DNA from: Bradymonas sediminis
GTDB lineage: Bacteria; Myxococcota_A; Bradymonadia; Bradymonadales; Bradymonadaceae
Assembly: GCF_003258315.1 (NCBI RefSeq)
Contig: NZ_CP030032.1
Location: forward strand, 1,812,001 to 1,876,000
Length of the DNA stretch: 64,000 bases
Direction: 5' to 3'
Positions 53,090-62,408 of this stretch are shown piece by piece. The first letter of the stretch is position 1; every line of letters starts with the position of its first letter. The translations under genes were made by a program, and so were the position numbers. Under the pieces are notes generated by a model. That model worked only from the letters and a program-made list of their open reading frames with translations, did no database searches and was not told the origin of the DNA.

Positions 53090-53216
53090 ATGAACAATTT
53101 TGGGGAGCCCGAGCGTGGGTGAAGGCGAGAAGGTCGCCTTCACCCTGGGCGCCGCGTTCCCTAAAGCGTGGACTAAGCACCCGCGAACACACCCAGAAAA
53201 ACACAAGGAGAGTATC

Positions 53217-54050
53217 ATGCAGTATATAAATATTCGCACCATTCTCGCGCTGCTTCTCTCAATGGGCCTCGGTTCCGCCGTGCTCGCCCAGGGCGGCGAC
53301 GCGATGGCCGAGGGCAGCTACGACAAGCAAGCTGAGAAGATCGATGACTCCACCGAATCGGCCACCGACAAGGCGGTCGATGATTCCAAGAGCGCCGAGA
53401 TGGGCAGCAAGGATGAGTCAAAGAGCGACGAGATGCGTAGCAGCGAGGAGTTGGCCAAAGACTTCAAGGAATGGACGAAGTCTGAGAAGCCCGACGATAA
53501 TGTCGACGGCTATGCCAGCAACGGCCTGACCAAGCTCGATGAGGCGATTGGCTCCGTGATCGAGGACGTGAACGCACAGCCTATGGGGGGCGGCCCGGCC
53601 GGTGACGAGAGCTCGGACAAGGAGGCTACGCACGAGATGGACAAGTCCGCGCTAAAGGACCTTAAGTCCGAGCAGGAGCGGCTCTCCAAGATCGCCTCGG
53701 ATATCAGCGGCGACGCCAAGAGCGAGCATCGCTCCAAGCAATTCCACGAGGCCGCAACCGCGACCAGCCAGATCTTCTCCTCCCTCCAACAGGCGCATTT
53801 CCCCAAGCTAGAGAAGGACGTCAAAAAGTTGCAGGAGCGCGTGGATAAGATCGACGCCAGCAAACCGCTTGCATCGCAGGAGAAGGATGTCGAGAAATTC
53901 TTTAAGGAGTCCTCGAAGGTTCTCGATAAGATGTCCGATGAGCTCAAAAAAGACGCCATCGGCGGTGGCCCGGTCGAAGACGACATGAGTCACGAGGGCG
54001 ATAAGAGCAGCGACGAGAAGGTCGATGAGGTGACGCCCGAGATCGAATAG
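53217..54050 (+). CDS. Exported paralogue B of a tandem pair
   Basis: A 277-aa protein. AAGGAG lies 7 bp before ATG at 53217, giving a signal peptide (TILALLLSMGLGSAVLAQ). The mature part is Lys/Asp/Glu/Ser-rich and helical. Blocks matched with paralogue A: KEWTKSEKPDDNVDG with NAWTEQDHPS, PMGGGPAGDES with VGGGPPDES, and VEKFFKESSKVLDKM with IKSFFDNGAQVLNAF. The second GGGP (IGGGPVEDD) near the C-terminus is extra. The gene ends with a strong terminator. It is probably periplasmic, with no enzyme motif seen. Confidence 0.85.
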   Translation: MQYINIRTILALLLSMGLGSAVLAQGGDAMAEGSYDKQAEKIDDSTESATDKAVDDSKSAEMGSKDESKSDEMRSSEELAKDFKEWTKSEKPDDNVDGYASNGLTKLDEAIGSVIEDVNAQPMGGGPAGDESSDKEATHEMDKSALKDLKSEQERLSKIASDISGDAKSEHRSKQFHEAATATSQIFSSLQQAHFPKLEKDVKKLQERVDKIDASKPLASQEKDVEKFFKESSKVLDKMSDELKKDAIGGGPVEDDMSHEGDKSSDEKVDEVTPEIE

Positions 54051-54139: not shown

Positions 54140-54841
54140 TCAGAGCGCGTCGTATTCGAGCGCGACCTTCAATTCACGGGCATGTTCCCATTTGAACCGT
54201 CCGCGCATAAAGCAGAAGACGCGCTGATAGTTGTCGGCCCAGTCGATCATGGTCTCCATGTCGAATTGGTCGAGTTTGCGCCGAAGGCCCGCGCGCTCGG
54301 TGAGCACCCACGCGGCGTCGCCGCTGGTGTGGGGGATCTCTTCGCGATACGCGATGAACGGGTCATGCGCGTATACAAGGCCGATGGAGTTCGCGAATTC
54401 GAGGGTGTCGCGAAGCTGCCACAGGCCGTCGCTCTCCCAGATAACCAGGGGCTTAATCGGGGCGGCCAATTCGTTGACCACCTTCTCGAGCAGGTCGCGC
54501 GAGATCTGTCCGGGCCGGAAATTCGCAGGCGTGCGGATCAGAATTGCGCGGGCGGCCAGGGCGTGGGCGCGGTCAACATTTGCCTGCCAAGCCTCACGGG
54601 CGGCGGCGTCCAATTCGGTGGCGCCGCGGGCGCTTAAGCGCGTCAGGGCGTTCACGAATTTGCTATCTGCGCATAGCGTAAAGCTGAAACCCTTGGGCGA
54701 CTCAACCCGCCAGCGGTTAAGCGTGGCGGTTTTGGGGAGCGCGTCAAGCGTCTCGAGGTCCAACTGAAGCGCGTTGCAGCGCTTAAAATAATGATCCCAG
54801 CCGCGATCTAATTCATCGCAACCGTAATAAAGCTTCGTCAT
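54140..54841 (-). CDS. DUF72 (YecE-like) protein
   Basis: A 233-aa protein of the DUF72 TIM-barrel family, short against the usual 240-300. It opens with LYYGCDELDRGWDHYFKRCN, where the family's YYGTSxW-type start is altered. LQLDLETLDALPKTATLNRW and ESPKGFSFTLCADSKF match the second strand and the FxxKxP-like motif. The final region DWADNYQRVFCFMRGRFKWEH replaces the typical FNN motif. The function of DUF72 is unknown. The gene is single and converges with paralogue B. Confidence 0.75.
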   Translation of the reverse strand: MTKLYYGCDELDRGWDHYFKRCNALQLDLETLDALPKTATLNRWRVESPKGFSFTLCADSKFVNALTRLSARGATELDAAAREAWQANVDRAHALAARAILIRTPANFRPGQISRDLLEKVVNELAAPIKPLVIWESDGLWQLRDTLEFANSIGLVYAHDPFIAYREEIPHTSGDAAWVLTERAGLRRKLDQFDMETMIDWADNYQRVFCFMRGRFKWEHARELKVALEYDAL

Positions 54842-54978: not shown

Positions 54979-57900
54979 TCACTCAAAGCGGAGGACCTCC
55001 TTTTCGCCGCGCGCGGCGACCAGTGAGTTGATGCGCTCAAGCGCCAGCGCGCGCTGGCTCCAGAAGAGATCGACGCGCACTCGCTCGCCGGCGTTGGGTG
55101 CGGGGAAGAGGCGCTCGGCGGCGAGTTCTCGGTCGATAAGCCGCAGCGAAGCCACTGTCGCCTTGCTAAAGCGGCTGGTCCAATCGAAGCGTCCTTTGAT
55201 GCGGGTCGACGAGCGGGGCTGAAATGCGCCCATATTCGCCGTCGAAACCAGGACACCGTCGCGAAGCCCGAGTTGGTTGCCCCAGCCGGCGGCGGTCGGG
55301 CTAAATCGGTCCCAATTATTTGTCAGATAATCGACGAGCAACACCGACGAAAGTTGCGCGGCCAGGCGCGCCAGCGTGACATCGTTGGCCTGGGCGAGCA
55401 GGGGCGTATAGAAGTCGTCCTCGAGGCTCTTGAGCGAGGCGAGGCCCTCGGCGAGCGGCATCTCAAGGTCGTCTGCGCTCCCCGGTGCCAGCCACGGGCG
55501 CCAGAGGCTGATGCGCTCGATGGGGAAGCGAGCCGGTGCGTCGAGCGCGTCGATTAGCGCGCCGTAGAGGTATTCGCCGTCGTCTTCTTTGACCCAGTTC
55601 AGCGCGCCCAGCTTATCGGCGTGCTCGCCCGGGGCTTCGCCCACGAGTTTTTGGAACGCAGCGCGCTCGATTCGGGCAGGGCGTGCGCGGGGGACCTCAA
55701 AGTTGCAAACCATCATCTGGCAAAGTCGCCAGGAGGCGATGGCCATGCGCCAGTCGCGCTCGAATTGAGCCTGCGCGGGTTCGAAGACGAAGGCTGGCTT
55801 CTGCCCTGTCGACAGGTGGATGGCCAGGCGGTTATTCTTCTTGCCGTGAAGCGCCAACGTCGCGGCGTCAACGCCTGCTTCTGCGCTGATGTCGACCGTT
55901 TTATAGGCGCCCAATTCGGGGTTCTTCTCGATGGACTGCTTGAAAAGGGTTTCGAATTCTCGGGCGGCCTCCTCATCGCCGTTTGCGTTGGCGGTCAGCA
56001 TCGCGGCGATCGCGACTTCGCCGGCGGCCGAGAATCGCTGCGCGTCGACGAGCACGGTCACGTAGCGTTTGGCGAAGTCAGCGTCCTCGCCGCGCTCTTG
56101 CCAGAGAAATCGCATGATGTCGGCGGCGCCAGCATGATCGCCATCAGCGATAAGCTCTGCGGCGAGCTCATCCTGCGATTGTGGGGTGTCCAGCTCGACG
56201 TCGGCTGCGCTCTCAACCTCGGCGCGCGCTGCGTCGACCGCCGGCGCAACGGCCCCCGACGCCGCCTGGGACTCGTCCTTAGGCGCGTCTCCATTATCGC
56301 CCACGACCGGCTTGCTATCGGATGCACCCTTTGAGGCCAAAGCGTCTTTTGCCTTCTGGATATAGGGTTGTCCAAACGGGCTAATAGCCAGGCCGACGAC
56401 GGCGGCCATGATCAGAAGCCCGACGATAATGCCTGCTTTTTTGCCGCCTGCGCCGGACGGGATGGGGGCGTCCTCGAAGTAATCGAGGCCGTCTTCTTCT
56501 TCTTCGGCCGGTTCCTCCGGCTGGAGGGCCGGGGCCGAATCCGCGAAGCCTTCGGGGAGTGACGGAGCCGGCTCGCTGCTTTCGGCGAGGTCGACGGTCG
56601 ACGGGGATTCGGTGTGCGTGCTGTCGGCTTGCGTGATTTGCGTGGCGGCATCGCCCGCATCGTTGCTTTCTGTGGTGTTAACTTCGGCAGCGGCGTCGGG
56701 GCTCTCCGCCAGCGGCAGCGGCGCAGAATCGGCCTGGGCGGCGGTGTCGGAGGCCGGCTCGTCAAGCGAGATATCGCTCGCAGAGTATAACTTCTCGGTG
56801 ACGACTTTCTTGCGGGGTTCTGCGTGTCGCAGGGCATCCACGTCGGCGAAGAGGCCGCTGTTGACCGTTTCAAAATCCGAGTCACCGCTCAGTGAGTCCG
56901 TCAGGCTTTGGCTCAGCGACGGAATCGCGGCGATTTCGGTGGAGTCCTTGAGGTCAGCGAAGTCGTCGGCGCCGTCAAAGCGCTCAAATAGGCGGCCCGA
57001 CGACGCCGGTTTGGGTAGCGGCGCGGCGCCGGATTGCGATGCCCGGGGCAGCGGTGCACGCGCGAGGGTGGAGAGCATCTCGTGGGCCTCGGCGGCCATC
57101 TTCTGGCGCAGATCGGCCAGCACCGGGTGCTCCCCGATCGGCATCCAATCGCCGTCGGATTGGGCGATCTCGGCGGCGCCCATCAGCACGCCGCGCTTGA
57201 CCAGCTCGGTCAAGCCGGCCTTGTCGATGGGCTCATAAATGATCTCTTCGACGCGCAGCCGGTAAGTTCCCTGGCCCAAGACATCCTGGATCTCGGCGGT
57301 CGGCAGCCGGATATAGCCGCTGCCTCGGCGCTCGCTGGCCGCGCCGGGTTGCTGGTTCTCGGCGACCCGGCGGCGAAGCAGGTCGATCATGCTGGAGTCG
57401 CCGGTGTCGTAGGCCAGCGCGTCCTGGTCGGGCGCGGAGGCGACCGAGTACATCTTGGTGGTGCCGGTTCGCTTCTTTCCATCGAGCGCCCGCGCGGTTT
57501 CGTCCGCCAGGGAGTTCAGGGCGCGGTCCAGGGCCGCGGCCGACTTGCGGCGGGCCAGATCGGCCGAGTTGCGCGGTTTGGCTGAGCGTTTGGGGAGCGC
57601 GCTGATGCGGTCGCTCGAGGCCTCCGACGGCGAGGGAAGATCGATTTTTCGTTCGCGCGCCTTCTTCAGCAGCGTCGCCAGCGAGGGCTTGGTCTGCTCC
57701 GGGACCAATGCCTCGCCCGCGTCCGGCGAGGTGTCTTTCTTCAACTTCTGCTGCAACTTTTGCTTAATTTTGATGCGGCCAAGGACCATCTGCTTCGGCA
57801 CTTCTGAGGTCGGGTCCGGGTCCAGGTCGAAGGGCGGCTTGGTCTCGTTTTGCGAGGCCAGCAAGGCCTCATCGGAGAGGTCTAGCGTCTTTTTGGCGGA

Positions 57901-58605
57901 TCGGTTTTTATGGGTCGGCGCCAGCCGTTCTTTGAGGGTGGCGCGGTCGAGGGCGTTTTGCTCGGAGGTTTCGGCCAGACCCGCGTCGGACGAAACACGA
58001 AACTCTTCGGGCAGCGGCTTGGTATTCGGCTTGGTGGTCGACTCTTGCTTAAATCCGGAGGCGTCGCTCTGTGCTCCATCGTCGGCCTTCAGGACCTGGT
58101 CGACCAGCGAGCCGTCGACGACCTTGGTGTGCTCGTCGGTAAATTTGCTGGTCTTCTTCTTTCTTGAGGCGTCGATCGCCATCAGGCCGGCGCCCATGCC
58201 CAGATAGGTCGAGCGGGGGCTGCTGTCGGTGAGGCCTGGCATGATGTCGAGGTGCGCGAAGTCGTCCTCGTCGAGCGGGGTGCTACGGTGCGAGAGTCGC
58301 GGCGCGCCGGTGGCGGTCGCTCGGCGCGGGCGCGCCGCGTCGGTGCCCGAGACCGGCGTCTCCGACGGGTTCGAGTGAATGATATTGCTCTCGGGCGCCG
58401 GGGAGGCGCCGAAAGCTCCACTCGCACTCCTGTCCTGTGTCGACTCGTCGTCGTGGCTCAGATTTGCCTCGACAACGGGAATCTCCTCGCCACACCGCGG
58501 ACATGGGATGGCCTCCTTGGGCAGCCGTCCTTTTTTGGGCTTGAGCCGAAACTGCGTGTTACAGCCGGGGCACACGATTTTTATCTGCGCGGGGATATCT
58601 CCCAT
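54979..58605 (-). CDS. Zinc-ribbon membrane protein with GYF-like region and Fam20/HipA-like kinase-type C-terminus
   Basis: A 1208-aa protein in four parts. Residues 8-40: zinc ribbon with C12, C15, C35 and C38 (VCPGCNTQF / PCPRCGEE), as at the start of Myxococcota signalling proteins. Residues 40-430: long disordered Ser/Lys/Asp region. About 446-500: a GYF_2-like module (YEPIDKAGLTELVKRGVL). One transmembrane helix at about 720-740 (GIIVGLLIMAAVVGLAISPF) sets the C-terminus outside or in the periplasm. Residues about 915-1130 resemble the Fam20/HipA kinase fold: PAFVFEPAQ near 935 where FKP is expected, ASWRL, YLTNNWDRFS near 1095 (N-x-D-R-like), and ANMGAF where DNG-AF is expected. The Lys and second metal Asp appear substituted, so the domain may be inactive. 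The kinase-like reading is inference. Confidence 0.8.
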   Translation of the reverse strand: MGDIPAQIKIVCPGCNTQFRLKPKKGRLPKEAIPCPRCGEEIPVVEANLSHDDESTQDRSASGAFGASPAPESNIIHSNPSETPVSGTDAARPRRATATGAPRLSHRSTPLDEDDFAHLDIMPGLTDSSPRSTYLGMGAGLMAIDASRKKKTSKFTDEHTKVVDGSLVDQVLKADDGAQSDASGFKQESTTKPNTKPLPEEFRVSSDAGLAETSEQNALDRATLKERLAPTHKNRSAKKTLDLSDEALLASQNETKPPFDLDPDPTSEVPKQMVLGRIKIKQKLQQKLKKDTSPDAGEALVPEQTKPSLATLLKKARERKIDLPSPSEASSDRISALPKRSAKPRNSADLARRKSAAALDRALNSLADETARALDGKKRTGTTKMYSVASAPDQDALAYDTGDSSMIDLLRRRVAENQQPGAASERRGSGYIRLPTAEIQDVLGQGTYRLRVEEIIYEPIDKAGLTELVKRGVLMGAAEIAQSDGDWMPIGEHPVLADLRQKMAAEAHEMLSTLARAPLPRASQSGAAPLPKPASSGRLFERFDGADDFADLKDSTEIAAIPSLSQSLTDSLSGDSDFETVNSGLFADVDALRHAEPRKKVVTEKLYSASDISLDEPASDTAAQADSAPLPLAESPDAAAEVNTTESNDAGDAATQITQADSTHTESPSTVDLAESSEPAPSLPEGFADSAPALQPEEPAEEEEDGLDYFEDAPIPSGAGGKKAGIIVGLLIMAAVVGLAISPFGQPYIQKAKDALASKGASDSKPVVGDNGDAPKDESQAASGAVAPAVDAARAEVESAADVELDTPQSQDELAAELIADGDHAGAADIMRFLWQERGEDADFAKRYVTVLVDAQRFSAAGEVAIAAMLTANANGDEEAAREFETLFKQSIEKNPELGAYKTVDISAEAGVDAATLALHGKKNNRLAIHLSTGQKPAFVFEPAQAQFERDWRMAIASWRLCQMMVCNFEVPRARPARIERAAFQKLVGEAPGEHADKLGALNWVKEDDGEYLYGALIDALDAPARFPIERISLWRPWLAPGSADDLEMPLAEGLASLKSLEDDFYTPLLAQANDVTLARLAAQLSSVLLVDYLTNNWDRFSPTAAGWGNQLGLRDGVLVSTANMGAFQPRSSTRIKGRFDWTSRFSKATVASLRLIDRELAAERLFPAPNAGERVRVDLFWSQRALALERINSLVAARGEKEVLRFE

Positions 58606-58947: not shown

Positions 58948-61347
58948 CTATAGGCGTCCCCAGCGTCGGCGCAAAGACCACTCGGCGGCCAGCAGGCCGA
59001 GGATGAGAAAGAAGATCGCGAAATGGTCCCAGAGCTGAATGACCCGGCGGTGGTTGACCTTTACGAAACGCGGCGGCTTGAGCTTGACCGAGTCCGGGCT
59101 GAATTTGGGCAGGGCTGCGTGGTAGCCGCCGCTCGCGCTGGCGAGGTCCGACAGCAGCGGGTCGCGCGGGATGATCTCACGGAACTCATTGATATTCTGG
59201 AGGGCCAAAAAGCTCTCGCGATCGACGAGTTTCCCGGCCGCCCCTGGGGCCTCGGCGATCAACTCATAGACGCCGGTTTTGGGGACCGGCAGCTTCAGGA
59301 TGGCTTCGCCGCGCGCGTTGGTGGTGAAGGGGATGGTCTGAATCGTCTTCTTATCGGGGACCTTGAGTTGTCGGGCGGTTGGGCGCGCGCCTTGATGACC
59401 CTCGATGGCTTTGTGGGACGGGTCGACGAGGTCGCGGTGCAGCAGCTGAAGTGTGCCCTCGACGCCGACCGCCGGTGTGTAGTCGGACTTCGCCAGATGC
59501 ACGAGCACGTCGACCTCGCTGCCGGGCGGGTAGATATTCTCGGGGACTTCGACGCGGATGAGTTTGAGCTCCGGGTCCTGGATGAGCCAGCGGATCGCGC
59601 TATTCCAGAAGACCTGGTACTCGCGGCCGACGCCGCCGCGGTCGACTTGCTCGAAGGCCCAGCGCCAGGTGGAGTCCGAGGTGATCGCCATGCTGCGGCC
59701 CTTGCCGACCTCGGAGACCGTGATAACCGGCATCGGCTCGCCGCCCGCGCGCAGGGTCGGGTGGGTCGCGAGCACCGTGGCGCCCGGCTTGGCGCCGGTG
59801 ACGATATTGCTGCCGCGCATCCCGGGCAATTGACTCCAGATCTTGAGGTTCGACGCCGGGTCAAAGGCGAGCTGGGTGATGGGGTGGTAGAGCCCCGCGC
59901 GGGTCAGTTCGGGTTGGAATTCGTCGAAGTTGACCGCGCCGCTGACGTTGCTCATCGGGGGTAAGAAGACCGGCAGGATCTCCTCGATGGGCGTATTGGA
60001 ATAGCCGCCGGCCGCAAACGACAGCTCCCCGCCGATCATGACAAAGCCGCCACCTTCGCGCACGAATTCGGCGATGCGCGGCAGATAGCGACGCATCTGG
60101 TAGGGGCCGAAGTTGAAGTTCTGGAAGATGACCATATCGAAGCTCCCCAGCTCGTCCTCGAAGAGTTCGCGGGTGGGGAAGGGGATCAGGCTCATCTCAT
60201 TATTGGGCACCAGTTGGACGCTTGAGTCGGTGCGCAGGATAAAGAAGCTGATGAGGTCATAATTCGGGTTGTTTTTGAGCAGGCGGCGCATAAAGCGCTC
60301 GTCCCAGCTTGGCTGGCCGACCACCTGGAGCACGCGAATCTTGTCGCGGATTACATTGAGCAAAAAGTGGCTGATATTGTTCTCGGTGAGAACCTCGCCC
60401 GGGTATTCCGGCGCGGCGACCGTGTAGATCTCTTTTCCCATATGCTCCGGAACCAGCTCGAAGCTCACGCGGTATTCGGTGGTATCCGGTGAGATCTGAA
60501 GCTGGCGGGTTTGCAGGAGTTGGCCTTCGCGGCGCAGCTCTACCTGCACGGTCGGGGTGTTCAGGCCGATAATTTGCAGGTCGACGTCGATGCTCACCTT
60601 GTTGTGAATATAGGCGAAGTCGTCGTGATGAACGCGGGTGATGGCCAGGTCGCGCAGTGATTCGGCCGAGGCGGCGGCGAGCGTGTTGAGCGGGGCGTCG
60701 AGATTCTTAAGGGTCTCGAGCGTCGCCTGGTCGAGCTCCTCGCCGCGCTGGATGCGCCGCCCGAGCGCGCCGGTGTCGATGCCATCGGAGATGAGGATCA
60801 TGCCGCCCAGGTTCTGCGGGTCGATATGGTCGGTGAGCGCGTCAAAGGATAGGCCGATTTCGGTCGCGTCGGCGCTCGGCGTAGCCGCCTGAAGCGCCGT
60901 CAATGAGGACGGGCGCAGGCCGTCGCCGACGCTAAAATAATGGAAGTTATGATCTTCTTTTCCGCGCTCAATCAGCGGCTTTAGACCGTCGAGCGCCTCG
61001 GTCGCGCGCTGGTAGCGTGTGCCTTCGCTGTCGGCCTCGGCGCGCAAGCCCATCGACTTGCTGGTGTCGACCATGACGACCACGTCGTTCTTCACCTTCG
61101 AGATATGCTTGAGGTCGATCGCCGGTTCAAGGAGCAGCAGCACCGCCAGGGCGTAGACCGCCACGCGCAGCCCCACCAGGGTCCAGCGGCGCAGCGCCCG
61201 CAGGTTGCGCAAATCATAGGCGCTGATCGCGAAGATGACCGTCCCGAGCACCACCAGCATCGTGATCCAGGCGGGGCTCCAATCGCCCAGCCACAGCAGG
61301 TCCCCTGCGTTATAGTCCCCGAAGGAAAAATCCCCGAAAGTAATCAT
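58948..61347 (-). CDS. VWA-domain membrane protein with GATase-like domain
   Basis: A 799-aa protein. Two N-terminal helices (residues 27-44 and 56-75) and one at the C-terminus (LWDHFAIFFLILGLLAAEW) flank the extracytoplasmic part. A VWA domain begins at residue 89, with MIDAS residues in VDTSKSMG (94-101). A beta region with CARDB-like character follows, then a glutamine-amidotransferase-like domain around 395-440 (FREGGGFVMIGGELSFAAGG-type turn: VREGGGFVMIGGELSF). The same combination is known from large planctomycete and Myxococcota membrane proteins often encoded beside DUF4159 and MoxR/DUF58 genes. Function is unknown; a role in envelope protein assembly or sensing is inferred. It lies 94 bp downstream of the DUF4159 gene. 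Confidence 0.87.
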   Translation of the reverse strand: MITFGDFSFGDYNAGDLLWLGDWSPAWITMLVVLGTVIFAISAYDLRNLRALRRWTLVGLRVAVYALAVLLLLEPAIDLKHISKVKNDVVVMVDTSKSMGLRAEADSEGTRYQRATEALDGLKPLIERGKEDHNFHYFSVGDGLRPSSLTALQAATPSADATEIGLSFDALTDHIDPQNLGGMILISDGIDTGALGRRIQRGEELDQATLETLKNLDAPLNTLAAASAESLRDLAITRVHHDDFAYIHNKVSIDVDLQIIGLNTPTVQVELRREGQLLQTRQLQISPDTTEYRVSFELVPEHMGKEIYTVAAPEYPGEVLTENNISHFLLNVIRDKIRVLQVVGQPSWDERFMRRLLKNNPNYDLISFFILRTDSSVQLVPNNEMSLIPFPTRELFEDELGSFDMVIFQNFNFGPYQMRRYLPRIAEFVREGGGFVMIGGELSFAAGGYSNTPIEEILPVFLPPMSNVSGAVNFDEFQPELTRAGLYHPITQLAFDPASNLKIWSQLPGMRGSNIVTGAKPGATVLATHPTLRAGGEPMPVITVSEVGKGRSMAITSDSTWRWAFEQVDRGGVGREYQVFWNSAIRWLIQDPELKLIRVEVPENIYPPGSEVDVLVHLAKSDYTPAVGVEGTLQLLHRDLVDPSHKAIEGHQGARPTARQLKVPDKKTIQTIPFTTNARGEAILKLPVPKTGVYELIAEAPGAAGKLVDRESFLALQNINEFREIIPRDPLLSDLASASGGYHAALPKFSPDSVKLKPPRFVKVNHRRVIQLWDHFAIFFLILGLLAAEWSLRRRWGRL

Positions 61348-61441: not shown

Positions 61442-62221
61442 TCAATTCACCTTCCATTGGCGCCGCTCCAGGATAAACGGAACGTGGACCTGATCAGCCT
61501 TATAATTGATGGTCAGCGCGTACATCACCAGGTTGATGCCCATGCGAAAGGCCATCTCGCGCTGGCGCTCGCCGCCGGGGCTTACGTCGAATTGCCAATT
61601 GCCGAAGTTATCGCGCGCCAGCGCCCCCATCAGATCGTTGGGGCAAACCACCACCATCAGGCGGTCGCGGTCGAAGATACCGCGCATGGTCGGCGCGACT
61701 TTGACCCGGCCCAGCGGCTCATCGATGAGGTAGAATGAGTTATAGAGCACATGCCCCTTGGGGATCACGGTGAGTTTTTTATCCGGCAAGATTCGCTTCA
61801 GCTCGCGCTCGGCCGACTGCATAAATGGGCCGGAGCTGACGCCCTCTGCCGAGTCAACCAGCAGGAATCCGCCGGCCTGAAGATAGGTGCGAAGATTCTC
61901 GACGACCTTGTCCTCGAGCGCCGGGATCGCCGCGTCCCCGGCCAGCGACAAGAATGGGTTATCGAAGAGGTCCGAGCCTCGCCCGTCGATGATGGGCACG
62001 TCGGTGTTCACCGAGATGCTCGTGCGCTTGGCGACCTCGAAGAGCAGGCGGCGAATCCCCGAGGGCCGCGGGTCCCAGCCCTGCGCGGCGTATTTGAACT
62101 TGGCGATGCTGAAGTTCGTGCTCTCACCCATCGCCTGCGCCTCCGAAGACAGCAGGGCGTTGGGCAGCAGTCCACCTAATCCGGCCAGGGCCAGCGCTTT
62201 TAGGAAATCACGTCGGTTCAT
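61442..62221 (-). CDS. DUF4159 protein with Tat signal
   Basis: A 259-aa protein from ATG at 62221, giving the twin-arginine signal MNRRDFLKALALAGLGGLLP, cleaved near SEAQA. An in-frame ATG at 62296 directly after an upstream stop is possible but puts the Tat motif 28 residues in. The mature part is DUF4159, a GATase-like fold (YLQAGGFLLVDSAEGV; DRLMVVVCPNDLMGAL). DUF4159 is usually part of larger MoxR-linked clusters. Together with the VWA gene 94 bp downstream it forms a two-gene unit. The Tat motif suggests folded export, perhaps with a cofactor. Confidence 0.85.
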   Translation of the reverse strand: MNRRDFLKALALAGLGGLLPNALLSSEAQAMGESTNFSIAKFKYAAQGWDPRPSGIRRLLFEVAKRTSISVNTDVPIIDGRGSDLFDNPFLSLAGDAAIPALEDKVVENLRTYLQAGGFLLVDSAEGVSSGPFMQSAERELKRILPDKKLTVIPKGHVLYNSFYLIDEPLGRVKVAPTMRGIFDRDRLMVVVCPNDLMGALARDNFGNWQFDVSPGGERQREMAFRMGINLVMYALTINYKADQVHVPFILERRQWKVN

Positions 62222-62408
62222 AGGATTCAGGTCTTCGCTAGGTTCAAAGGGCCTTCTAAAAAAGAGGTTCTCTTTAGGGATGTCTCCATCAGACATTCAA
62301 GAGAACCGTTCGTCTTCCTGCAGGAACATAGGTCGGATGCCTATCCATTCCAAGTCGCTCAAAAAGCCACCAGTATAGAGGCGCGACCCGGCGAGCGACC
62401 TTGGAATC

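Follow-up and report, generated by a model that had tools for sequence, protein, structure and literature searches.

A conserved Fam20-type pseudokinase of Bradymonas sediminis, predicted to be joined through the membrane to a cytosolic zinc ribbon and GYF-like domain

A gene of Bradymonas sediminis encodes a protein of 1208 amino acids whose C-terminal domain belongs, as judged from its modelled structure and from transitive homology, to the Fam20 fold group, and in which most of the kinase active site is gone. Because this loss is accompanied by purifying selection in the orthologues tested, the sequences identify the protein as a conserved pseudokinase, not a pseudogene. The gene lies in the window, the whole 64,000-nucleotide stretch of B. 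sediminis DNA that we analysed (Table 1), and its product is predicted to join the pseudokinase domain, through a single transmembrane (TM) helix, to a zinc ribbon and a GYF-like domain on the cytosolic side. The same partner genes are kept across the family, which suggests that the dead kinase domain is used in binding or signalling, not in catalysis.

Table 1. Features of the pseudokinase gene and its conserved neighbours; positions are those of the window, residue numbers those of the 1208-residue protein.
Feature	Position	Strand	Basis
Fam20-type transmembrane pseudokinase gene, 1208 aa	54979..58605	-	ORF with ATG start; translation
Zinc ribbon, N-terminal, predicted cytosolic, residues 9-40	58486..58581	-	Pfam Zn_ribbon_4 E=0.003, sub-threshold; CxxC pairs conserved
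GYF-like domain, residues 437-513	57067..57297	-	Orthologue identity and hhalign
Single predicted TM helix, about residues 719-737	56395..56451	-	Hydropathy scan
Possible TPR-like helices between TM helix and kinase fold, residues 818-868	56002..56154	-	Pfam TPR_19 E=0.023, sub-threshold
Fam20-type pseudokinase domain, residues 887-1208	54982..55947	-	AlphaFold2 and Foldseek
E942, replaces β-3 ATP-binding Lys (FKP to FEP)	55780..55782	-	Alignment
A955, replaces α-C Glu (RAEIA to RMAIA)	55741..55743	-	Alignment
C962 and C967, invariant Cys pair, possible disulphide	55705..55722	-	Invariant columns of alignment A1
D1099, catalytic-base Asp retained (NWDR)	55309..55311	-	Alignment; aligned to Fam20C NMDR
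A1123, replaces metal-binding Asp (DNGAAF to ANMGAF)	55237..55239	-	Alignment; aligned to Fam20C LDNGRGF
VWA/GATase1-like membrane protein, upstream conserved neighbour	58948..61347	-	Pfam; synteny
DUF4159 protein with TAT signal, conserved neighbour	61442..62296	-	Pfam; synteny
DUF72 protein, downstream conserved neighbour	54140..54841	-	Pfam; synteny

Intact relatives of the domain carry the motifs LGGG[KRS], FKP, RAE, NWDRF and DNGAAF; the corresponding motifs of the 1208-residue protein are LALHGK, FEP, RMA, NWDRF and ANMGAF. Of the five catalytic elements four have gone, namely the GGG loop, the lysine, the α-C glutamate and the metal-binding aspartate, and D1099 alone remains. The original prediction had placed FxFKP-like, AxxxL-helix, N-W-D-R and N-x-G-A-F landmarks in this order and proposed that the ATP-binding lysine and the second metal aspartate are replaced. 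We find the landmarks in that order, as FEP, RMAIASWRLC, NNWDRF and ANMGAF, together with both replacements (E942 and A1123); the loss of the α-C glutamate (A955) and of the GGG loop, which it did not mention, comes in addition. The order and spacing of the landmarks recur in about 60 relatives, and the spacing between NWDR and MGAF is kept across the orthologues.

In the closest relative, L039, with about 50% identity, the lysine and both aspartates are still present and the GGG loop and the α-C glutamate are missing, while a large subclade has NWERF and HNGDAF instead and keeps the lysine and the glutamate. These differing losses point to degeneration by several routes. Among the orthologues, the catalytic aspartate is E or N in most, the metal-binding aspartate is A, E, H, C or V depending on lineage, and the lysine is retained in most. 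The second copies in the same family have the lysine, the glutamate and both aspartates in all 19 cases in which motifs could be read, and the GGG loop in 18 of them (the assemblies of G002 and G017 contain just part of the second copy). In the tree, the family's degenerate rows group together (94/98, not starred); a tree in which L077, the degenerate row of a sister family (f2), was added to this group was not rejected and was slightly better.

AlphaFold2 models the last ~320 residues as a kinase fold with a mean pLDDT of 94.4 (94.5 for the intact paralogue). In Foldseek, all ten PDB matches at E<0.001 are Fam20C, Fam20A or Hydra Fam20 (probability 1.00, TM-score 0.51-0.58), and the first 22 PDB fold matches of the intact paralogue are likewise all Fam20. 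The fold had been anticipated as Fam20/HipA-like; the first half of that description stands, and HipA proves not to be equally related. We rejected HipA as the closest relative: it is absent from the 50 fold matches listed, in which Fam20 comes first, and the profile searches agree. Searched against the PDB, the family profile matches FAM20C with E=2.9e-5 (1.5e-4 with the window-first alignment) and FAM20A with E=0.025. The 1208-residue protein itself has no match to PF06702, the Pfam Fam20C family, at E<1, and its intact relatives score 12-20 bits against a cut-off of 26.8; no NCBIfam family is above cut-off. The distant Myxococcota relatives L139, L141, L147 and L148 do pass the PF06702 cut-off. 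The profile of the protein's own family (A1) aligns to L141 with 99.6% probability over 280 columns (hhalign), and L141 in turn matches Fam20C/A at E of about 1e-8 (phmmer). With this bridge and the fold matches, the Fam20 link rests on structure and sequence together.

The secretory kinases FAM20C and FAM20B (PF06702) provide the best PDB sequence and fold matches and have in common with the bacterial intact paralogues the order FKP, AE-helix, N-x-D-R, D-N-G-x-x-F. The 1208-residue protein differs from them in lacking most catalytic residues and a PF06702 match of its own, and identity in the structural alignments is 12-15%. FAM20A, a secreted animal pseudokinase (PDB 5wrr, 5wrs, 5yh3), resembles it in the Fam20 fold, in the loss of catalytic residues and in having an intact paralogue in the same genome; it is likewise extracytoplasmic, a placement that for the bacterial domain is predicted. 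By contrast, the bacterial protein has lost the lysine, the α-C glutamate, the metal aspartate and the GGG loop, whereas in FAM20A a glutamine replaces the Mn-binding glutamate, and yet ATP is bound, upside down (PMC7948968). The bacterial protein differs further in its predicted membrane anchor with a cytosolic zinc-ribbon/GYF half and in having a sister family without an intact partner. A second acidic residue of Fam20 is Glu213 of the worm enzyme (PMC5865150), and the HMMER alignments of the bacterial kinases break at that point. The SCO1664 family (TIGR03843) and the HipA/PI3K-like kinases belong to the same broad kinase-like superfamily and give weak profile matches, but these score below Fam20, and HipA is not among the significant fold matches.

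The Fam20-type proteins of Myxococcota (for example L139-L148) are mostly 350-520 amino acids long, several lie above the PF06702 cut-off, and some have lipoprotein-like or hydrophobic N-termini. In L137, an intact Fam20-type kinase domain sits behind an FGE-sulfatase-type (formylglycine-generating enzyme-like) region, and L138 contains a similar protein.

Selection on the degenerate copies was read from syntenic orthologue pairs. The dN/dS of the pseudokinase domain is about 0.06-0.09 within one genus, and one intact pair at similar distance gives 0.08; these ratios indicate strong purifying selection in the pairs tested. No stop was seen inside the matches of about 20 orthologues, and on the open frames together with dN/dS we rejected a pseudogene. 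Mean pairwise identity among 17 syntenic orthologues is 71% for the GYF-like domain and 40% for the kinase fold; among 14 intact paralogues the values are 34% (ten with the GYF-like domain detected) and 46%. Judged by these identities, the cytosolic adaptor is the part now conserved in the pseudokinase clade, and in the intact paralogues the order is reversed.

The zinc ribbon consists of CxxC-x21-CxxC at residues 12-38 with all four cysteines present, and it is conserved in most of the family. A long low-complexity linker separates it from the GYF-like domain, and a second lies between the GYF-like domain and the TM helix. Both N-terminal domains miss their Pfam cut-offs in the 1208-residue protein: Zn_ribbon_4 (PF13717) with 17.9 or 23.2 bits against 30.3, and GYF_2 (PF14237) with 12.6 bits against 25.8. 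The conservation of the CxxC pairs supports the first, and for the second, hhalign (pairwise, not a library search) aligned the GYF-like region to three GYF_2 domains of the same genome with 87% probability over 51 columns. The hydropathy scan predicts the TM helix weakly in this protein and more strongly in most orthologues. A zinc ribbon, a GYF-like domain and a predicted TM helix occur in one protein, as had been proposed. Beyond the membrane, the TPR_19 match reaches E=0.0004 in L039, still below cut-off. Elsewhere, two tandem copies of the GYF-like domain occur in a 650-residue frame (G010:C1:4630152-4630712) that lies apart from the two Fam20-type genes of G010.

The Fam20-type fold is probably extracytoplasmic. 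A TM segment is predicted before the domain, and many short family members in other bacterial families start with predicted lipoprotein-type signal peptides, which backs the proposed location of the pseudokinase beyond the membrane. The predicted signals and the invariant cysteine pair (C962, C967) both fit a periplasmic domain.

A single other copy of the C-terminal domain occurs in the genome, in an 882-residue paralogue that has the same layout and is intact, and the zinc-ribbon/GYF/TM/Fam20 layout is common to most of both the degenerate and the second copies. Three other proteins of this genome combine a zinc ribbon and GYF_2 with a hydrophobic segment, and their C-terminal ends are unrelated. 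These proteins (L149-L151) resemble the pseudokinase in the cytosolic zinc ribbon, the GYF domain, the low-complexity linker and the one TM helix with a C-terminal domain beyond it. They differ in that their ends are TPR or other periplasmic domains without a kinase fold, and in that their GYF_2 domains reach the cut-off, whereas that of the 1208-residue protein is divergent. The zinc-ribbon/GYF/TM plan by itself is not unusual in this lineage. As this scaffold is carried by further proteins of the genome, what is less usual is its attachment to a Fam20-type pseudokinase, and the supposed novelty of the combination narrows to that part.

At the start of the intact paralogue, no ATG, GTG or TTG lies between the in-frame stop and the zinc ribbon in the window's genome (L059:11650-11690, minus strand) or in G010 (L061:7430-7480). 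Both L059 and L061 have AGGAG, nine bases and then ATC where L058 has ATG, and ATC is a possible conserved start codon of this paralogue.

Gene order in the window is DUF4159, VWA/GATase1-like, pseudokinase, DUF72. The degenerate copy adjoins VWA and/or DUF72 in 18 of 20 relatives, hence with the window in 19 of 21 genomes. In genus g4 the pseudokinase gene has moved away; in one of its two genomes, G003, VWA and DUF72 directly adjoin, and in the other, G015, the VWA contig showed no DUF72. In most of the class each genome has a single copy of the VWA gene. This gene occurs without the pseudokinase in many families, which, together with the relocation in g4, argues against an obligatory physical tie to VWA. 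Both the degenerate and the second copy are present in each of the family's 21 genomes; the intact paralogue has no neighbours common to most genera and is unlinked to the pseudokinase gene. In the sister family f2, a copy that is degenerate or hardly recognisable occurs in four genomes, and no genome has an intact copy; two of the four copies (L077 and L155) are followed on the same strand, about 2-5 kb downstream, by a DUF72 gene. PADLOC gave no defence-system match for the pseudokinase or its two upstream neighbours. On the plus strand at 53100-54050, the window encodes a Ser/Asp-rich, probably secreted protein; G010 has about five tandem relatives of it at the corresponding site (L039:9763-15999).

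We put at about even the chance that the protein is a non-catalytic transmembrane adaptor or sensor, whose periplasmic pseudokinase domain would bind an envelope component and whose GYF-like domain would recruit cytosolic partners, probably in a VWA/DUF4159 context. The protein would cross the membrane once with its N-terminus inside, keeping the zinc ribbon, the linkers and the GYF-like domain in the cytosol and the pseudokinase in the periplasm. Having presumably lost phosphate transfer, the periplasmic domain would work as a module that binds or senses an envelope nucleotide, glycan or protein, and the state of this module would be relayed across the membrane to the GYF-like domain. The complex encoded by the adjacent DUF4159-VWA genes would be the likeliest setting in which the protein works.

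It seems to us somewhat unlikely that the protein instead acts as an allosteric activator of the intact paralogue, as a periplasmic counterpart of FAM20A, which activates FAM20C by heterodimerisation (PMC5865150, PMC7948968). Such a role would be in line with that documented precedent, with the co-occurrence of both copies throughout the family and with the layout that most of them have in common. The two genes are unlinked, however, the kinase gene lacks a conserved neighbourhood and the pseudokinase fold evolves faster than the rest; moreover, the role is weakened because the f2 genomes have the degenerate copy only. Kinase folds can also carry other chemistry, AMPylation in SelO and glutamylation in SidJ. 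With D1099 kept here and the lysine kept in most orthologues, residual nucleotide binding or another transferase activity of this kind is possible. We give only a small chance to an enzyme that would pair the catalytic-base aspartate with another residue set: the fold is predicted to be intact and L039 keeps the lysine and both aspartates, but no common alternative set emerges, and the mixture of residues at the two aspartate positions is not what a newly evolved, conserved active site would be expected to show.

That the protein is a genuine kinase with unusual residues that phosphorylates proteins or glycans of the envelope is highly improbable, since the lysine, the α-C glutamate, the metal aspartate and the GGG loop are lost together, even though close relatives look fully intact and L039 nearly so. 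That the gene is a decaying duplicate with a functionless C-terminal domain would agree with motif loss by different routes and with fast divergence of the domain; the low dN/dS within one genus, the uninterrupted orthologues, the confident model and the persistence of the domain across two bacterial families make this improbable as well.

Fam20 kinases are described as a group of the animal secretory pathway, and both the Fam20 fold and Fam20 pseudokinases are already known. A survey of Legionella, amoeba and human kinomes called the Fam20 cluster eukaryote- or Metazoa-specific (PMC9758233). In the open-access literature we found no description of a bacterial, membrane-wired, synteny-conserved Fam20-type pseudokinase, nor of a wide spread of Fam20-type proteins in Myxococcota, the one phylum searched, in which 111 of 379 genomes have a match. 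Within one clade, the active site has been lost repeatedly while the gene neighbours and the cytosolic adaptor domain were kept, which offers a bacterial system in which relatives can be compared to follow how a kinase turns into a pseudokinase. By analogy with FAM20C and FAM20A, the class might run a periplasmic pair of Fam20-type kinase and pseudokinase, the latter wired to a cytosolic zinc-ribbon/GYF adaptor, a proposal that we consider unlikely; if true, the pair would constitute transmembrane, phosphorylation-based envelope signalling of a type whose known examples come from the animal secretory pathway. Whether phosphorylation takes place in the periplasm of these bacteria becomes a question that can be tested.
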